64,000 bases of DNA from contig CAJXZB010000006.1 in the NCBI GenBank assembly GCA_913063405.1, positions 1-64,000 on the forward strand. The letters run 5' to 3'. The notes beneath the pieces are model-generated. The model was not told the origin of the DNA and ran no database searches. It saw only the letters and a program-made list of their open reading frames with translations. Origin of the DNA: an uncultured Ulvibacter sp. GTDB lineage: Bacteria > Bacteroidota > Bacteroidia > Flavobacteriales > Flavobacteriaceae. Below, one piece after another: positions 5,685-38,302 of the stretch; the stretch's first letter is position 1; each line of letters starts with the position of its first letter. Position numbers and translations under genes: made by a program.

Positions 5685-6437
5685 CTAATACCCTGTTTCT
5701 CTTTTCCATATAGCGCTACCATATTGATCAATATATTTAATAGCTGTGTTTCTTTGATGGGTTTTATCATCTACTATGGCATTCGACCTAGGAGGGATAA
5801 TCATTCTAACATTAGGGTGAGTAAGTCTAACGGAGGATTTAAAATCATACCCTCCATCAGCTAGTACTGTTTTAATCTTGTTACCTACCTGTTTGATGGT
5901 ATAAGGAAGTTGCGTACCATCGTGCCTTCTAGATGATGTGGTGGTGTTAAATATGATGTGTCGAGTAGTTACATTAATTCCCGTATGAATCTTAATAAAC
6001 TTACGAACTCTAGTAGCCTTATGTTTCTTACGCATCCATTCCTTTTCTCCACTACACTTTAATCCACTTGCATCTATAGAGAAGACTATACTTTCCTTGC
6101 GATTCCAAGGAGTAAGTTTCTTCTTTATATTTAGTGTTTTTCTTCGACGGCAAAGGGTGGTGTAATCTGGAACTTCTAGAGCAATATTTTGCTCTTCTAG
6201 CAGACTCATCATAAACCCTTGTGCTTGGCGTAGTGGTAAATAATATACATAGGAAATTATTAAAATCAATTCTATTACTGCAGCACTATAAACTTGTTTG
6301 CCTCCTCTTAAACGAGTACCTCTATAATACCAATTAATGAAAATACTCTTGTCAAACCAAAAATCAATACGCCCTCTTTGAATTAAACTCTTATTATAAG
6401 AACTACTATTGATTAGTTGAAGTTTATAGCTACGCAT
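5685..6437 (-). mobile_element. IS5-family transposase, C-terminally truncated
   Basis: DDE-type layout: 'VFSIDASGLKCSGEKEW', 'VLADGGYDFKSSVRL', 'IIPPRSNA'; ends abruptly at 'WKRETGY*' where IS5 proteins normally continue with an E-containing segment. Confidence 0.8.
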
Positions 6438-29141: not shown

Positions 29142-29630
29142 ATGAAAGCTTTATTTCTTTTTGCTTTTTTGGTTTCAGTTTTTGTGGTTACCCCCAAGGT
29201 ATCGCAAATACGGGCAGACTACAGTAAGTCTAATGGAAACATGGAAATGATCGTTAAGTTACACGATGCCTTGTCTTCAGTAGAGAAAAAAGATAATAAG
29301 ATACTGGTCGCATATAAAGGAGCCGTTTTAACCGCGATGGCTAAATACACAAAGGGTAAAAAGGAGAAGAAAGAGTTTTTTAAAGAAGGAGCAGCACTTT
29401 TAGAATTTGCTGTTGCTTCAAAACCTAATGACATTGAGATACGAACCATTAGATTGAGTATTCAGGAAAACGCACCCAAGTTTTTAAAGTACAACAAGAG
29501 TATTATTGAGGACAAGGCGTTTATCTTGAATAATTTTAAGAGTACAACTTCCTCTGGTGTGCGGGCGTTTGTAAAGTCATATGTAGCTCAATCAAAGGGC
29601 TTTAGTGTTTCAGAAAAAGATCGATTGTAA
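29142..29630 (+). CDS. Secreted hypothetical protein; its 3' end is duplicated at 36945-36965
   Basis: Signal-like N-terminus; C-term ...SEKDRL* matches ...SKKEQL* remnant on the far side of the island. Confidence 0.75.
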   Translation: MKALFLFAFLVSVFVVTPKVSQIRADYSKSNGNMEMIVKLHDALSSVEKKDNKILVAYKGAVLTAMAKYTKGKKEKKEFFKEGAALLEFAVASKPNDIEIRTIRLSIQENAPKFLKYNKSIIEDKAFILNNFKSTTSSGVRAFVKSYVAQSKGFSVSEKDRL

Positions 29631-29720
29631 CTCAATAAATTACTATCGGATTTTTCTATATTCATTCTCATCTAAATTTTGATACTTAGATGTCAAATGC
29701 GTATTTTTACAAGGTGTTCA
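29610..29720 (+). repeat. Left copy of ~111 bp direct repeat flanking island
   Basis: About 100/111 identical by eye to 36945-37055, no gaps; contains hairpin CATCTAA-N10-TTAGATG. Confidence 0.9.
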
Positions 29721-29838
29721 TTACTGCCATTCTTGCCCTGAACTGGGTCGAAGGGATCTTGTTTTGAACTAGTCATAGTCATTTTTTGAACTAGAAGTTG
29801 GAGGTTTTCCAGAAATTGAACAAGTATTTAATCAAAAA

Positions 29839-32439
29839 ATGATCTATTCTAATCCCCTTCTGTATAAATATATATTCCATTTCTTCTTAATGCTATTAAT
29901 TAGTATAGAGTGCAGTGCTCAAGAGTTTATCTATGAAAACTTCGGGGTAGATGAAGGTTTACCTAGCTCTGAGGTTTATGATGTCTATCAAGATAAAGAA
30001 GGATATATGTGGTTTGCGACCGATAAAGGGCTATCTAGGTATAATGGGTATGAATTTCAAAATTTTAACACCAATGATGGATTAACAGGTAATGTAGTTT
30101 TACGTTTTTACCCACAATCAAACGGGCAAGTATGGTGCTATTCCTTTCATAATAAATCATTATTCTACTTTGATGAAATATTTAAGGGTTTTAAAACTTA
30201 TAAATACAACAACATACTAGCCAAAAATTTACAGGAAAGCAGTATTGTAAAAAGTGTCTACTTAGACACAATAAACAATTTACATATTGGAGGGCATCAA
30301 ATAAATGGTGAATTAATTATTCACAATGATGGTGTAGCTACAAGTAATTATTCAACAGAAGATTATTTTCTTCCCCTCATATCGATTCAAAAATCTACCA
30401 TTTTAAAAAAGACTCTTGATTCTGGAACCGCCCCCTTTTTTTTCACAACAAGTGATACAAACAAAATAAAAAAAAGTGTATCAAATACAAATTACAAATC
30501 CCCTCGTATTATGGCAGACTGGTTGGTGCAAGATGGAATAGGGATTCTCATGAGTGATAGTATTGTTGAAATTGTAAACCAAAATAATGAAAATATCATC
30601 ATTAGATATGAGCATTCCCCTATAGGTATTAAGATGATTGATAGTGCTTGTTTCTTTGTTGGTTACGAATTTGGAGGAGGGAAAATCGTCGATAAAAGAG
30701 GTGTTGTTTTAAGAGAATTTTTAAAAGACAAGTCTGTCTCTAATTTATTAATAGACCACGAAGGTGGGTATTGGTTTACTACACTAGATTCTGGCATATA
30801 TTATGTTGAAAATCCTTTAGTCGCTGTTTATCGTTCAATAAACCAAAAATCCCGACATATTAATAGTTTGGCAAAAAACAATGACAAAGAATTATTAATT
30901 GGGTATAAAAACGGAAATATTTCAAAATTGTTAAAGAACAGAACTACATTAGTACTAGATCAACCTGAAAAAAGCGTACATGCATTCGTTGAGCATGATT
31001 CGATATTTAATAAGACATATTTATATAATAATTACGGATTAAAAAACGCTACAACAAGCAAAAAATTACTAACTGGCTATATATTAAAGTTATCAGAACC
31101 AATTGACAGTACCATTTTTGTTTCTAGTATTAATCGTTTTTATGAAATTAATAAAAATGGAGCTGTTAATACTCGTAAATCACGCTACAGAATACACGAT
31201 GTTTGTATTTGGAATAAAGATACTTTAATTAGTACTCCATTGGGGGTTTTTAAATTTGAGAATGGCAGTACTATTTCTTTATCAGGTCAATCAAAATTAT
31301 ATAATTACAGGAGTGAAGATATTGATGTTAACAGCAACAATGATATATTGTTTGTCGCCACTCAAGGAGCAGGAGTTATTGTAAATGATGGGGAGCATAT
31401 TTATAATATCACAAGGAAAGATGGATTGAACAGTAATATAGTTAATGAAATTTATATTGAAAATGACACTACCATTTGGGCCTGTACAAATAATGGGATA
31501 AACAGAATTGAATTTCACAAAAATGGTAAAATCATCGCTGGAATTAGTAAAAAAGAGGGTTTATTAAGTGATGAAATTGAAGATATAGAAATTATAAGCG
31601 ACACTGTTTGGGTAGGAACTAAACAAGGACTGTGTTACTTCCCTAAGAGTCAATTAACCTTAAAAAGTAATACTTCTTCCTATTTAAAACTTAAAGAGGT
31701 TTATGTAAATAGCAAATCAAAAGAAATTACGGGCAATGTTATTTTAACACATAAAGAGAACGAAATTGACTTTGTGTTAGAAGGTATATCTTATGCAAAT
31801 AAAGACAACTTACATTATCAATACAGGTTGAACAATAACTTGAATTGGTCTTCTACAAAGGAGAGGGTAATTCATTTTTCATCACTAGCCCCAGATACAT
31901 ATATTTTTGAGTCCAAAATGTGCTTTGGTGATAAAGACTGTTCTGAGAAAATAATAACATATCAATTTACTATTCGGCCTCCTTTTTGGAAAACAGGATG
32001 GTTTAGCCTACTTGTCTTATGCGTTTTGGTTTTACTCATTTATTTATTCTTTAAAGTAAGGGTGCTTACCTATAATAAAGACATCACAAGAGAATTAATA
32101 CGACTCTTAATAAAGCGATTAAAAAGAAAAGAAAAATATTTTTCTTTTAGAGAAAATGGAAATCAAATAAGAATCAAAACCCATGATATTTTATTTATAA
32201 AGTCGGCAGCAAATTACATCGATATTCATACCGAGAACAAAACCTATACAGTACGAATGAGTATTGGTAAGTTTTTAGAACAGATCCCAGACAAAATTGA
32301 ATATGTACGCATGCATCGTTCTTATATTGTTAGAATCGATAAAATCACTTCAAAATCTAAAAATGAAGTCTTTATTAAAGATCTAAAAATACCTGTTAGC
32401 CAAAGCTTTCTTCCAAATTTAAAGGATATTCATTTTTAG
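29839..32439 (+). CDS. Membrane-anchored two-component-regulator-propeller protein with C-terminal LytTR DNA-binding domain
   Basis: 'GLPSSEVYDVYQDKEGYMWFATDKGLSRYNG' propeller blades, Y_Y_Y-like domain, TM 'GWFSLLVLCVLVLLIYLFF', LytTR 'IRIKTHDILFIKSAANYIDIHTENKTYTVRMSIGKFLEQIP..YVRMHRSYIVRIDKI'. Confidence 0.92.
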   Translation: MIYSNPLLYKYIFHFFLMLLISIECSAQEFIYENFGVDEGLPSSEVYDVYQDKEGYMWFATDKGLSRYNGYEFQNFNTNDGLTGNVVLRFYPQSNGQVWCYSFHNKSLFYFDEIFKGFKTYKYNNILAKNLQESSIVKSVYLDTINNLHIGGHQINGELIIHNDGVATSNYSTEDYFLPLISIQKSTILKKTLDSGTAPFFFTTSDTNKIKKSVSNTNYKSPRIMADWLVQDGIGILMSDSIVEIVNQNNENIIIRYEHSPIGIKMIDSACFFVGYEFGGGKIVDKRGVVLREFLKDKSVSNLLIDHEGGYWFTTLDSGIYYVENPLVAVYRSINQKSRHINSLAKNNDKELLIGYKNGNISKLLKNRTTLVLDQPEKSVHAFVEHDSIFNKTYLYNNYGLKNATTSKKLLTGYILKLSEPIDSTIFVSSINRFYEINKNGAVNTRKSRYRIHDVCIWNKDTLISTPLGVFKFENGSTISLSGQSKLYNYRSEDIDVNSNNDILFVATQGAGVIVNDGEHIYNITRKDGLNSNIVNEIYIENDTTIWACTNNGINRIEFHKNGKIIAGISKKEGLLSDEIEDIEIISDTVWVGTKQGLCYFPKSQLTLKSNTSSYLKLKEVYVNSKSKEITGNVILTHKENEIDFVLEGISYANKDNLHYQYRLNNNLNWSSTKERVIHFSSLAPDTYIFESKMCFGDKDCSEKIITYQFTIRPPFWKTGWFSLLVLCVLVLLIYLFFKVRVLTYNKDITRELIRLLIKRLKRKEKYFSFRENGNQIRIKTHDILFIKSAANYIDIHTENKTYTVRMSIGKFLEQIPDKIEYVRMHRSYIVRIDKITSKSKNEVFIKDLKIPVSQSFLPNLKDIHF

Positions 32440-32470
32440 GGCTAAATATTTTGTCCCTAAAACCTAGGGT

Positions 32471-32500
32471 ATTCGTACCACCCTGTTTTTCATTCGTAAC
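32471..32500 (+). promoter_or_regulatory. Candidate LytTR operator (two 9 bp direct repeats, 21 bp centre spacing)
   Basis: ATTCGTACC (32471-32479) N12 ATTCGTAAC (32492-32500). Confidence 0.55.
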
Positions 32501-32547
32501 TATTTTATATATACCTGTAACAAAACGTTATAGAAGTAAAGCTTAGT

Positions 32548-32607
32548 TTTTCATAATTATATAGATTTAATGTATTCAATAACATTTAATCTATATAATT
32601 ATGAAAA
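32548..32607 (+). promoter_or_regulatory. Long hairpin overlapping the start codon at 32601
   Basis: TTTTCATAATTATATAGATTTAATGT - attcaata - ACATTTAATCTATATAATTATGAAAA, 25/26 paired. Confidence 0.8.
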
Positions 32608-33530
32608 CAAATTTTAAAGTAGTATTATTTGCATTATTCTGCATTACATATGCAAATTCACAAACAAATATCTTTCCTGACGATGGCAATGCAGGTATTG
32701 GAACAATAAACCCTACTGCTAAATTAGATGTTATACTAAATGACACTAGTATTTTTGAACAATCAGGAATACGATTAACAACACCATTTGCTTTTTCTCA
32801 AAATAGTATCATAGAAAGTTTATTTCAAATAAGAAGAAAAGGATTTACAGGAACCTATAGCGATTATCTAATAGTAAAACCAAATGGTAAAATAGGAATA
32901 GGTACTTCAAATCCAAATAGTAAACTACATGTTCATAACGGTAGAATTCAAATTACAGGGAACAACTCCTATGGAGGGCCTATGATGATTTTTGGAGGAG
33001 ATGAAAGTGCGCCTAATGGACAATGGGGTATTGAATATGCATCAGGAGGAGTTTCTGGTCTTAATTTTTGGAAACCCGATGGAAGTACAAATGGAAATAA
33101 TGGTGGAGGTTTTGGAAATCACTTTATGTTTTTGGCAGATAACGGAAGCGTAAGTATTGGTCTTGATCCAAACTTTATTAACACTTTTGGTAAAGTGACT
33201 TATAATGGAGATTATAGCTTATACGTTGGAACTGGAATATTAACTGAAAAAGTAAGAGTGGCGTTAAGATCTAGTGAAGATTGGGCTGATTATGTTTTTA
33301 AGGAGGGTTATAATTTATTAACTCTTTCTGAAGTTGAGAAATACATTCAAGAGGAAGGACACTTACCCAATGTTCCTAGTGCCGAAGAAATTGCAAACTC
33401 AGGAATTGATGTTGCAAAAATGGACGCCAAACTACTGGAGAAAATTGAGGAGTTAACACTTTATGTAATTCAACTTAAAAAAGAAAATGAGGAAATAAAA
33501 GCCTTATTGAACGAAAAAGGAATCAACTAA
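32601..33530 (+). CDS. Secreted tail-fibre-like protein with C-terminal coiled coil
   Basis: Signal peptide; 'AGIGTINPTAKLDV', 'IGIGTSNPNSKLHVHNG', 'EGHLPNVPSAEEIANSGIDVAKMDAKLLEKIEELTLYVIQLKKENEEIKALL'. Confidence 0.85.
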   Translation: MKTNFKVVLFALFCITYANSQTNIFPDDGNAGIGTINPTAKLDVILNDTSIFEQSGIRLTTPFAFSQNSIIESLFQIRRKGFTGTYSDYLIVKPNGKIGIGTSNPNSKLHVHNGRIQITGNNSYGGPMMIFGGDESAPNGQWGIEYASGGVSGLNFWKPDGSTNGNNGGGFGNHFMFLADNGSVSIGLDPNFINTFGKVTYNGDYSLYVGTGILTEKVRVALRSSEDWADYVFKEGYNLLTLSEVEKYIQEEGHLPNVPSAEEIANSGIDVAKMDAKLLEKIEELTLYVIQLKKENEEIKALLNEKGIN

Positions 33531-33542
33531 TATTGAGCTACT

Positions 33543-36500
33543 ATGAAAACAACAAATAAAATACTGGTTGTAATTTTTCTGCTCTTGTTTCAATTTTCTT
33601 TCGGTCAAGATTCTTCAAATCGTGATAGGGGAAATCCAAATGAACCCTATCAATTTATTTTGGGGGAAAATAATTTCACTGGTATAAAGAGAGAAGGATT
33701 AGAGTTTTACGAAAACAAAATTGAAATTTACGGAATTGACAAAGTGGCCACCGAAGGAAGTCCTTATATAGAATTTATACGGTTTATTACAGACTGGGAA
33801 ATAAAACTTGCAAATCATGATTATAATTTAAAGCGATATTTTTCATCTTTAGACAGTAAATCCGACTACAAAGACTTACCTGTAGCAGGCTGCGAATGGG
33901 AGGAGTTTGGTCCTTTAGTGAAATCTACTGGAAGTCAAGGAAATCCTAATACAGGGAGTCAAACAAGTATAAATGGAATTGGTCATACCGAGTTTATTAG
34001 AATAGACAATAATGAACCTTTAAACATGTTAATAGGATCTGCATTTGGAGGTCTTTTTTATAGTAGTAATGGAGGTGATCCATTGACAAATGGGAGTGCT
34101 TCATGGACTTGCGTTAGTGATAATTGGGATACTTCTGCGGTTGCTTGGGCCGAGTTTTCTGAGGCGTATCCAGGTACTATTGTAGCCGTTTCTACATTAG
34201 GAGGTGATCTCAATGGAAAATCTCATCGTTTAGGTGTTGGCGGAGGAATTTTAATTTCTAGAGATTATGGACAGACATGGAATAAACTACTATCTACTGG
34301 GATATTGTCTGCTTGGGATAAGGTTAATAAAGTGATTTTTAGCCCAGATAATCCCGACGAGATTTTTATTGCCAAGTCTAATGGATTATACAAATATACT
34401 GATATTAATGATCCAAATAATCCCTCTAACCTAGAGGAGGTATTTATCCCCTTAGGGAATGGTAATTATGAGAAGGTTGAATGTCTTGATGTAGAAATTG
34501 TAACATCAGACGAGCTATTTCCCGACGGAAATTTTTTTGCAACTAGTTTTCTAGTAATAGAAAATATTGGCAATAATACCGTGGCTAACGTTAAGATGTA
34601 TGTAACACAAGATGGTTGGCAAACGAGTGAAGAAGTATTTGAGACAATTGATAAAGAGGCCGCTACATTCGAATATTCTCCATCCAATTTATTTTCAGGA
34701 GCAGACCCATACAAAGCAAAGATACATTGTAATATTAAGACGGGTGATAATAAAGAAGTTTGGTCTTTAAGGTTGTTCAATCTTTCAGAAGAGATGTTAA
34801 AATCTCAATTTGAGGGTTCGAATAATTTTGGGAGTTCTTTTGCATTTGCTGTAAATCCCTTTGATGATAAAAAAATTATTTATTCTTATGGAACAGGATT
34901 ATCTGGAACAAATAATGGTTTTGTAAATAATTCAGGAAACCCTGCAAACAATGGGTTACACGATGATAAGGAGCATTTTTTATGGCATCCACATGACACA
35001 AACCCAAATGAAGTATGGGTGGCTCATCATGGGGGTGTATCCAAATCTGTTGATAATGGCCTAACTTGGGAAAGTAAAGACCTAGGGCTAGGAGTTGCCA
35101 TGGTTCAAAAATTTGATCATAGTGAAAATGATATTAATAAAATAATGCTTTCCTTAGATCATGATGGAACTACACGATTAAATAGTTCATATAATCAATC
35201 TAACCAAACACATGATTGGAATATGTTTTCTGTTGCTGATGGTGTTGGCGCCACTATGATCGATGAGGATGAATATCAATTTTATTTTGCGAGTGGTCAA
35301 TTCGGATCCAACACGAACGTCTCAATAGATTATAACGCCGCATCTCAACCATTAGGTTTTACATCTTCCTATGGTAATGCCGCCTATAATGGTTGGTATG
35401 AACCTGCTCAGGATGGAACTGTATTATATACCCATGGAGTTGAGAACAGTATTAACTTTGGGAATGTGTATAAGACTGAGTTAACCCCAGGAGTCATTCC
35501 TATATCAAGAACAAGAATTTCGGATTTTGCACAGTTCTTACCCGATGGTAATGACCATTATCTAACACAAATGAGCGCATCACAAAAAGATGATAATGTT
35601 TTATTTGCAAATGGTTTTGAAAATACTCCAAATGGAGGTAACCATGTTCTTTTCTATTGCAATAAAGCCAATAATACCGATCCTCAAGTAGCTATTAATA
35701 GTTGGGTTGAAATACAAATGCCTTATGATACAGGACAACTTATAAATACAGCTTTCGGTAGTGTTAAAGAAAGCCATTACATAAATGGAAGATACTATTT
35801 TACGACAAGTGGTAATAATGATGGAGTTTCTACTGAATATAGAGCTGTGATGTTAGACATTGATGGTCAAAACAATTTAACCTTAACAGATATTACAGGA
35901 AATTTACCCAAATGTGGTGTTAAATACGCTGCTGATTACAACATTACCATAGAAAAAGGTACACATGAAGGAATTTATGTTGCTCAAGATTGTGGCGTTT
36001 ATTATTTACACGGAAGTGATTTAGATTCTGGAAATTACAATTGGACTGCTATTGGAACTGGCCTCCCAAATATTGAGAAAAGAGGTATAAAACCTTATTA
36101 TGAGTTAAATAAATTACGCATAGGAACCTATGGTAGAGGCCTCTGGGAAGGATGCTTTGTTTGTCCAGAAGATGAAATATTTTATGAATCTGGAACGTAT
36201 GGCAACTCATATGTTTTCAAGGAGGCACGCCAACAAATTCATTCAACAGCGACCGTACAAGCTGAGCAAAATGTGAAATACAGAGCTGGGGACTTTATTG
36301 ATCTAAATCCAGATTTTACGTCTCAAAATGGAAGCATATTTGATGCCTTTATTCATCCTTGCGAACCAAATAGATCAAACAGTTTCAGGTCAGAACGAGT
36401 GAGCCCTTGGGAAAATATAATCCATGGCATGGATGAGGAGAATAGTGGAATGTTCGAGCGGATTTCAGAAGGTATTTTCCTGTTTCCAAATCCAACTAAT

Positions 36501-36701
36501 GGTATGACAACACTTTATCTTCTAAATTTTGAAGGGCCATATCAAGTAGAAATATTTACTCTTCAAGGACAGAGAATTAAGACTTTTGAAATGAAGGAAG
36601 CAAGGTTACAATATGACATAAGTGATTTAAGCAATGGTGTTTATTTAATTAAAGCTTCAAATGGAATAAATATTTACACATCTAAATTGCTTAAGAAATA
36701 G
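33543..36701 (+). CDS. T9SS type A sorting-domain BNR/propeller protein
   Basis: Signal peptide; 'ISRDYGQTWNKLL', 'KSVDNGLTWESKDLG'; C-term 'FLFPNPTNGMTTLYLL...GVYLIKASNGINIYTSKLLKK'. Confidence 0.9.
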   Translation: MKTTNKILVVIFLLLFQFSFGQDSSNRDRGNPNEPYQFILGENNFTGIKREGLEFYENKIEIYGIDKVATEGSPYIEFIRFITDWEIKLANHDYNLKRYFSSLDSKSDYKDLPVAGCEWEEFGPLVKSTGSQGNPNTGSQTSINGIGHTEFIRIDNNEPLNMLIGSAFGGLFYSSNGGDPLTNGSASWTCVSDNWDTSAVAWAEFSEAYPGTIVAVSTLGGDLNGKSHRLGVGGGILISRDYGQTWNKLLSTGILSAWDKVNKVIFSPDNPDEIFIAKSNGLYKYTDINDPNNPSNLEEVFIPLGNGNYEKVECLDVEIVTSDELFPDGNFFATSFLVIENIGNNTVANVKMYVTQDGWQTSEEVFETIDKEAATFEYSPSNLFSGADPYKAKIHCNIKTGDNKEVWSLRLFNLSEEMLKSQFEGSNNFGSSFAFAVNPFDDKKIIYSYGTGLSGTNNGFVNNSGNPANNGLHDDKEHFLWHPHDTNPNEVWVAHHGGVSKSVDNGLTWESKDLGLGVAMVQKFDHSENDINKIMLSLDHDGTTRLNSSYNQSNQTHDWNMFSVADGVGATMIDEDEYQFYFASGQFGSNTNVSIDYNAASQPLGFTSSYGNAAYNGWYEPAQDGTVLYTHGVENSINFGNVYKTELTPGVIPISRTRISDFAQFLPDGNDHYLTQMSASQKDDNVLFANGFENTPNGGNHVLFYCNKANNTDPQVAINSWVEIQMPYDTGQLINTAFGSVKESHYINGRYYFTTSGNNDGVSTEYRAVMLDIDGQNNLTLTDITGNLPKCGVKYAADYNITIEKGTHEGIYVAQDCGVYYLHGSDLDSGNYNWTAIGTGLPNIEKRGIKPYYELNKLRIGTYGRGLWEGCFVCPEDEIFYESGTYGNSYVFKEARQQIHSTATVQAEQNVKYRAGDFIDLNPDFTSQNGSIFDAFIHPCEPNRSNSFRSERVSPWENIIHGMDEENSGMFERISEGIFLFPNPTNGMTTLYLLNFEGPYQVEIFTLQGQRIKTFEMKEARLQYDISDLSNGVYLIKASNGINIYTSKLLKK

Positions 36702-36726
36702 ACACTAATTACGATTACCTAAGTTT

Positions 36727-36754
36727 AGAGGATACCATATGGTATCCTCTTTTG
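36727..36754 (+). terminator. Intrinsic terminator
   Basis: Perfect palindrome AGAGGATACCAT/ATGGTATCCTCT followed by TTTTG. Confidence 0.8.
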
Positions 36755-36835
36755 ATTTTAAACTATGTATAAATTAGGTCGTGTCTCAACAATAATAATC
36801 TTTAAAGGAGCATCAAGATAAGTAAGCCTACGGTA

Positions 36836-36935
36836 AATTATCCTTTTGGCTTAAAACAAAAAGGATACAACAACGAGGTTTCGCCAAATGGAAACTCCCT
36901 TGCACGAGCTTTTAAGTTTGGAGGAAAGGAATTAG
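36836..36935 (+). pseudogene. RHS/YD-repeat core remnant
   Basis: Frame reads NYPFGLKQKGYNNEVSPNGNSLARAFKFGGKEL, the RHS-repeat core boundary signature of Bacteroidota. Confidence 0.8.
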
Positions 36936-36944
36936 TTGAGCCAT

Positions 36945-37055
36945 TCAAAAAAAGAGCAATTATAATTCATTAAATTACTGCCAGATTTTTCTATATTCAT
37001 TCTCATCTAATTTTTGATACTTAGATGTCAAATGCATATTTTTACAAGGTGTTCA
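36945..37055 (+). repeat. Right copy of ~111 bp direct repeat
   Basis: See 29610-29720; includes in-frame 'SKKEQL*' matching 'SEKDRL*'. Confidence 0.9.
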
Positions 37056-37105
37056 ATAGCGCAATCTTCCCCGTTGGTATTGAATACTCGTATAGCAAAA
37101 ACTGA

Positions 37106-38302
37106 ATGAATCTTTCAAGCATTAACTCAAAATTAAAAGACTTGCAATGTTGTGTGATTATACCAACGTATAACAACAATAAAACATTGAAAAAAGTTAT
37201 CGATGGGGTGCTCGAATATACTAGAGATGTTATTGTTATTAATGATGGTGCAACAGATAGTACCAAGGAGGTCTTAGCGGAGTATCCAGAAATTGAGCAA
37301 ATTCACTTACCCAGGAATCAAGGAAAAGGAAATGCACTTAGAGAGGGGTTTGAAAAAGCCCTTTTGTTGGGATATAAATATGCTATAACAATAGATAGCG
37401 ACGGGCAACATTTTTCAGAAGATATTCCTGTTTTTGTTGAAGCCTTAGAAAATTCTGAAACTGAGAATCTTTTGCTAATTGGTGCAAGAAATATGGAGCA
37501 AGAAGGTGTTCCTAAGAAGAGTAGCTTCGGAAACAAATTTTCTAACTTCTGGTTTTGGATTGAAACAGGAACATGGTTAATAGACACCCAATCTGGTTAT
37601 CGATTATACCCTTTGAAACATATTGAGAGCCTGAAACTATTTACCAAGAAATTTGAATTCGAAATTGAAGTGATTGTAAAGGCCGCTTGGAATGGTACGA
37701 CCGTGAAAAATGTCCCTGTTAGTGTTTTGTATGATGAAACCGAAAGAGTTTCACATTTTAGACCCTTTAAAGACTTTACGAGAATAAGCATCTTAAATAC
37801 TTGGTTCGTACTCGTTGCTTTTCTTTTTATTAAACCTCGAGATCTTTATAGAAAATTTAGAAAGAAAGGCTTCCGAAGATTTATTCTGGAAGACTTTCTT
37901 GGAAATCACGACTCTCCGAAAAAGAAAGCGTTTTCAATTGCACTGGGAGTATTTATTGGATTGTCGCCCTTTTGGGGCTTTCACACGCTCATCGTTATCT
38001 TTCTTGCCATCCTTCTAAAGCTAAATAAGACAATTTCTTTTGTGTTTTCAAATGTGAGTCTACCGCCCTTTATTCCCTTTGTTTTATATGCAAGCTCGAA
38101 GATGGGACAGTTTGTTTTGGGGATTGAATATTCTTATACCATGGAAGAAATGACCGAAAACTTTGAAATTTTTAAGCACCTTAAAACATACATTGTTGGT
38201 AGTTTCTCTTTGGCAATTATTTCGGCAATTGTATTAGGGTTTTTAGGATATCTTATTTTGTCCATTTTTACTAAGAAACAAATAGCAATTCAACATGAGT
38301 AG
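37106..38302 (+). CDS. GT2 glycosyltransferase fused to DUF2062 membrane domain
   Basis: 'CCVIIPTYNNNKTLKKVIDGVLEYTRDVIVINDGATDST', 'TIDSDGQH'; C-term 'KKKAFSIALGVFIGLSPFWGFHTLIVIFLA'. Confidence 0.9.
   Translation: MNLSSINSKLKDLQCCVIIPTYNNNKTLKKVIDGVLEYTRDVIVINDGATDSTKEVLAEYPEIEQIHLPRNQGKGNALREGFEKALLLGYKYAITIDSDGQHFSEDIPVFVEALENSETENLLLIGARNMEQEGVPKKSSFGNKFSNFWFWIETGTWLIDTQSGYRLYPLKHIESLKLFTKKFEFEIEVIVKAAWNGTTVKNVPVSVLYDETERVSHFRPFKDFTRISILNTWFVLVAFLFIKPRDLYRKFRKKGFRRFILEDFLGNHDSPKKKAFSIALGVFIGLSPFWGFHTLIVIFLAILLKLNKTISFVFSNVSLPPFIPFVLYASSKMGQFVLGIEYSYTMEEMTENFEIFKHLKTYIVGSFSLAIISAIVLGFLGYLILSIFTKKQIAIQHE

Follow-up and report, generated by a model that had tools for sequence, protein, structure and literature searches.

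The window analysed here, a stretch of 64 kb (64,000 nucleotides), belongs to a 64-contig, 85%-complete draft genome of the GTDB genus of Ulvibacter antarcticus and U. litoralis. It carries a flexirubin cluster, identified as such by the 8710–10236 gene, which scores above the NCBIfam cut-off for FlxA. The cluster is interrupted by a segment of 7.2 kb flanked by direct repeats. The features of the region are the following:

29142..29630, + strand: 162-aa flexirubin-cluster gene with duplicated 3' end; homologues stand directly before GT2 in relatives.
29609..29742, + strand: left repeat copy, with the last codons of the 29142 gene and an intergenic promoter-like block, fading toward 29742.
29678..29709, + strand: putative sigma-A promoter of the left copy, TTTG-N20-TATTTTTA, now directed toward the LytTR gene; conserved in U. 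litoralis, Marinirhabdus and Altibacter.
29839..32439, + strand: 866-aa one-component regulator with a Reg_prop beta-propeller repeat (PF07494), a transmembrane segment (by eye) and a LytTR DNA-binding domain (PF04397).
32449..32500, + strand: putative LytTR-type operator, direct repeats TTTTGTCCC-N13-ATTCGTACC-N12-ATTCGTAAC.
32548..32607, + strand: near-perfect 26-nt inverted repeat, predicted RNA hairpin (z = -6.1) over the start codon of the tail-fibre-like gene.
32601..33530, + strand: 309-aa tail-fibre-like protein (PHROG 9942, tail fiber), with a 76% identical paralogue on contig C35.
33543..36701, + strand: 1052-aa T9SS-secreted protein with a 3-coathanger stack domain and a type A sorting tail; the N-terminal part is BNR/propeller-like by eye only.
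36485..36806, + strand: T9SS tail, terminator and 3' flank, common, whole or in part, to cassettes on contigs C19 and C35 at 73–81%.
36836..36934 (about), + strand: RHS core remnant (NYPFGLKQKGYNNEVSPNGNSLARAFKFGGKELVE), similar to RHS loci on contigs C14, C7, C5 and C2.
36944..37076, + strand: right repeat copy, running natively into the GT2 leader.
37013..37044, + strand: putative promoter of the right copy, TTTG-N20-TATTTTTA, directed toward GT2.
37106..38302, + strand: GT2 glycosyltransferase and DUF2062 gene, the native next gene of the flexirubin cluster.

Three genes are contained between the repeats (29839–32439, 32601–33530 and 33543–36701), in agreement with the preliminary description of this DNA. 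Both PF04397 and PF07494 score above the Pfam cut-off in the regulator, which matches 3v9f and 4a2l in the PDB. An alignment-free structure prediction of the T9SS protein reached a pLDDT of 32 and is uninformative, and the 29142–29630 gene matched no family in Pfam or NCBIfam. The hairpin at 32548–32607 is absent from the C35 paralogues and is, therefore, not counted in the conserved system. The island has a G+C content of 32.9%, compared with 36.9% for its flanks, and its composition is mildly atypical (GC z = -1.6; tetranucleotide distance at the 92nd percentile). A DDE transposase ORF (PF13737/PF01609) is located at 5685–6437 of the window, upstream of the flexirubin cluster, and a similar ORF is present on C35 (L085 6932–7858).

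Aligned without gaps, 29610–29720 and 36945–37055 are identical at 100 of 111 positions, as had been estimated by eye, and the earlier reading of the two gene ends is also correct, the left copy encoding SEKDRL-stop and the right copy SKKEQL-stop. The gapped direct repeat spans 29609–29738 and 36944–37072 (130 columns, 87%, E ~1e-37); its similarity decays but continues beyond 37055, as previously noted, fading out toward about 29742 in the left copy and about 37076 in the right. The longest exact word common to both copies is 27 nt. Direct repeats of at least 45 nt in the 64-kb window comprise the island pair and one tandem repeat inside the 297–4031 gene, with no others, and the genome search revealed no third copy in the 64-contig, 85%-complete draft. 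The repeat is thus present in two copies in the genome, rather than being a common dispersed element. In 400 kb of contigs C1 and C2, taken as a baseline, short direct repeats within 20 kb sit at a few loci; the C1 locus, inspected closely, consists of RHS-core repeats, and the C2 pair is located among related ORFs. A second direct-repeat pair is found on C35 (L085 1903–1996 and 5959–6052; ~94 bp, 88%), composed of a terminator and downstream DNA; it brackets 4 kb with two genes, and these two copies are the only ones in the genome.

The repeat had been described as the duplication of a gene 3' end. The gene end is included, but it contributes ~22 of the 130 nt; the remainder is mainly a conserved promoter-like region of the boundary, which had been overlooked. 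The core of this block (29649–29720) is identical at 70 of 72 positions between the copies, and at 50–54 of 72 in comparison with U. litoralis, Marinirhabdus and Altibacter; U. antarcticus does not have the block (30/72). Outside the core the copies have diverged, with 31 of 40 positions identical on the gene side and 12 of 22 on the GT2 side (gene side versus core, Fisher p ~0.007). The -7 box of flavobacterial sigma-A promoters is TAnnTTTG (PMC9723704), a motif that occurs in the intergenic region between the 29142 homologue and GT2 in 30 of 35 relatives (2.1 expected); the corresponding box in the window, TATTTTTA, is an imperfect match. Because of the TTTG-N20-TATTTTTA arrangement in the block and the TAnnTTTG motif in relatives, the duplicated piece reads as the putative promoter of the GT2 transcription unit together with the last codons of the 29142 gene. 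Given that the repeat core is a conserved promoter-like block, both flanks of the insertion can plausibly still be expressed. Both promoter-like copies appear to be kept under selection: a near-identical core between diverged flanks is as expected if both remain under selection and the insertion is non-polar.

The junction between the 29142 gene and GT2 was surveyed in 80 GTDB loci, 72 of which were measurable. In 61 of these 72 the 29142 homologue directly precedes GT2 with a gap of no more than about 200 bp, U. litoralis and U. antarcticus being among them, and a single repeat copy is found at the same place in U. litoralis, Marinirhabdus and Altibacter. The LytTR gene of the island is absent from all three congeners examined. 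Since relatives show an empty site and three of them a single repeat copy, the comparison identifies the three-gene island as a derived insertion, as first proposed, and not as an ancestral part of the cluster. The island is known from one draft genome, and a second strain with it was not found; searches across the family, using the long T9SS protein or the entire insert as query, scored only two candidates per genome, so that absence in these searches is weak evidence. In the other 11 measurable loci (L125, L166, L112, L098, L122, L137, L138, L144, L146, L147 and L152), 0.7–5 kb of other, unrelated genes are situated at the junction: a conserved gene of ~215 aa in several genera, a pair of large adjacent genes in two Aequorivita, and a small gene set in one more. 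No flanking repeats surround the inserts in these 11 species. The earlier view of the operon as a landing site thus holds in that the junction accommodates other genes, but these are unrelated to the island and lack its repeats. As for the other junctions of the cluster, most of those nearby almost never gain DNA; the one between the 28137 and 28773 genes exceeds even the 29142/GT2 junction in variability.

Relatives were further compared by column count at the sites where the two repeat copies differ. On the GT2 side they back the right copy by 5:0, which indicates that the right copy is native there and continues into GT2. On the gene side they split 4:4, and a by-eye judgement that the left copy is native on that side was dropped on this count. 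The proposal that the element restored the left gene and displaced the native end to the right is consequently neither backed nor contradicted by these counts, the GT2 side indicating only that the right copy runs natively into GT2.

At the right edge, an RHS-core remnant of ~100 bp, missed in the preliminary description, sits between the terminator of the T9SS gene and the right copy, ending ~10 nt before the repeat. It comprises only ~33 codons of the core, after which the repeat follows; the variable tip and immunity gene of an RHS orphan cassette were looked for and are absent. The related RHS sequences on C14, C7, C5 and C2 are RHS genes or isolated remnants, and the C14 copy matches TIGR03696 (Rhs_assc_core). 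A comparable arrangement is seen by eye on C11, where RHS-like sequence lies ahead of a LytTR fragment. RHS core genes and isolated remnants are scattered in the genome (L070, L071, L073, L074), some adjoining transposase-like ORFs. The RHS edge looks like the product of illegitimate joining among scrap DNA.

On balance, we consider it probable, with modest confidence, that the 7.2-kb island entered by homology-driven recombination without a dedicated integrase, duplicating ~130 bp with promoter-like DNA, and that the LytTR regulator then came to switch the cassettes. A chromosomal segment with the Reg_prop–LytTR regulator, the tail-fibre-like gene, the T9SS gene and the trailing RHS remnant would have been inserted between the 29142 gene and GT2, either through a single crossover with an end-joined circle carrying ~130 bp of the 29142/GT2 boundary, or through homology at one end and illegitimate joining of the RHS remnant to the gene end at the other. 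The recombination would have duplicated ~130 bp holding the apparent native promoter, such that transcription of the LytTR gene may start from the left copy, and that of GT2 and the remaining operon genes from the right one. Because the duplicated piece holds this apparent promoter, polar effects are not inevitable and the insertion could be retained.

Both routes have known counterparts. In an E. coli conjugation assay, re-circularised linear DNA integrated by single crossover with duplication of 109–950 bp of the target (PMC3240628). The island resembles these products in that a target duplication in the range of 0.1–1 kb flanks an insert without a dedicated recombinase; they derive, however, from engineered plasmid DNA, whereas the island results from a natural event long past, its repeat copies having diverged and the duplicated DNA including a promoter-like block. 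Homology-facilitated illegitimate recombination builds the orphan arrays of the V. cholerae T6SS and of RHS loci (PMC5361080). The V. cholerae arrays and the island have in common one homologous anchor, one illegitimate junction, an old gene end kept downstream and an RHS remnant at the junction. Unlike the arrays, the island has no effector–immunity pair, and its anchor is an operon boundary instead of a shared effector gene. No donor locus was found in which a copy of the boundary adjoins this cargo.

The two-copy anatomy alone fits a single crossover, one-sided homology or a lost integrase equally. Islands integrated at gene 3' ends by tyrosine recombinases display a duplicated gene 3' end, direct repeats and empty sites, all of which are seen here. 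The segment might thus be what is left of an integrative element whose attachment site was the gene 3' end with the promoter, its integrase having been lost or having acted in trans; the empty sites, the lack of the regulator in congeners and the low G+C of the insert would suit such an origin. Unlike those islands, however, the present one has no integrase, mobility genes or other att copies. Its three genes fill the segment and none is a recombinase, as the preliminary description had recognized, nor is there a relaxase or a phage structural operon inside. The T9SS protein has no match among plasmids and phages, the LytTR regulator matches plasmid genes only below 40% identity, and the inserts of the 11 other species are different genes without flanking repeats. 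Integrase-type integration at the gene 3' end, as initially suggested, is disfavoured by the lack of a recombinase, of a vehicle and of any other repeat copy, and a remnant of this kind is regarded as unlikely. The island most likely arrived through ordinary recombination and not as a mobile element.

Some of the cargo is found again at other loci of the genome, which the earlier account of the three genes had not recognized. Upstream of the C35 copy of the tail gene (76%) lies a LytTR pseudogene fragment containing stops, and downstream of it a subtilase whose sorting tail is of the same kind. A further LytTR 3' fragment stands before a T9SS protein distinct from these, and C19 encodes a subtilase whose tail and 3' flank are similar. 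Decayed remains of LytTR genes, together with T9SS cassettes in which the effector has been exchanged (subtilases, unknown), are located at L072 (contig C35) 5387–12001, L086 7894–8223 and L069 7453–9785. The effector-swapped cassettes have the tail gene, the operator or the sorting tail in common with the island. The sequences thus delineate a cassette family in which the ends are kept and the effector is changed. LytTR homologues of 42–52% identity also adjoin T9SS genes in several other genera; at nine other LytTR-homologue loci checked, no flanking repeats were seen bracketing the module.

This family raises the alternative of intragenomic shuffling, in which the boundary was duplicated locally and the duplicate became linked with a resident cassette of the C35/C19 family, the RHS remnants acting as stray homology. 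The presence of related cassettes and LytTR fragments on C35, C11 and C19, the RHS remnants at several loci, one RHS-like stretch lying beside the C11 LytTR fragment, and the 94-bp repeat pair of C35 all speak for it. Yet the cassette copies in the genome are only 73–82% identical, so that none is a recent source, and the island copy is the only full-length intact regulator of its kind found in the genome; shuffling is accordingly judged improbable. The same paralogues, situated on other contigs of this genome, argue against an assembly artefact, in which the repeat would have served to link a foreign contig piece into a draft assembly of metagenome type. The 64 contigs, the 85% completeness and the single genome leave room for such an error, but a 27-nt common word is short for a repeat-caused chimera and the composition is only mildly atypical, which makes an artefact highly improbable. 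The locus is best accounted for by an insertion of the recombination type in which the promoter region of the boundary was duplicated.

LytTR sites typically consist of two 9–11-nt repeats spaced by 11–13 nt (PMC4847170), and the putative operator of the island conforms to this repeat length and spacer and lies ahead of its target gene. Operators of the type ATTCGTACC-N11/12-repeat have three occurrences in the genome, each before a cassette copy, namely the island cassette and two cassettes on C35. The pattern ATTCGTAMC-N10-14-AYTCGYAMC has three genome matches, all of them a short way ahead of a cassette gene, and the reversed-pattern control yields no match; the pattern was written from the three homologous cassette copies, and conservation by descent therefore contributes to its matches. 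Repeats of the TTCGTCAC type with 12–13-nt spacing are found beside LytTR homologues and T9SS genes in other genera, with shuffle P values of about 0.007–0.023 in six of eight loci (uncorrected for multiple tests, and with two loci from close relatives). These repeats provide independent support for the candidate operator. The regulator is predicted to sense an extracellular ligand and to switch the tail and T9SS genes by binding the direct repeats at its own cassette and at the two C35 cassettes.

The LytTR domain and operator architecture are like those of the regulators YpdB and VirR (PMC4847170). Unlike these, the island regulator is a one-component protein with the Reg_prop sensor fused via a membrane segment, and its predicted targets are T9SS surface-protein cassettes. 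The pairing of Reg_prop–LytTR regulators with T9SS proteins was not described in any title or abstract returned among open-access papers. Tentatively, and with considerable doubt, one may envisage that a single membrane-anchored LytTR regulator, imported into the pigment cluster via a promoter-duplicating insertion, governs in trans a collection of exchangeable T9SS cassettes (BNR-like, subtilase, unknown) whose operators persist as the regulators belonging to them decay, which would constitute a shared-operator, effector-swapping surface-protein system in Flavobacteriaceae. The locus shows how a conserved biosynthetic operon could take up cargo that has no mobility genes and yet stay intact, and offers a testable regulator–operator pair for the Reg_prop–LytTR regulators that lie beside T9SS surface proteins in several Flavobacteriaceae genera.
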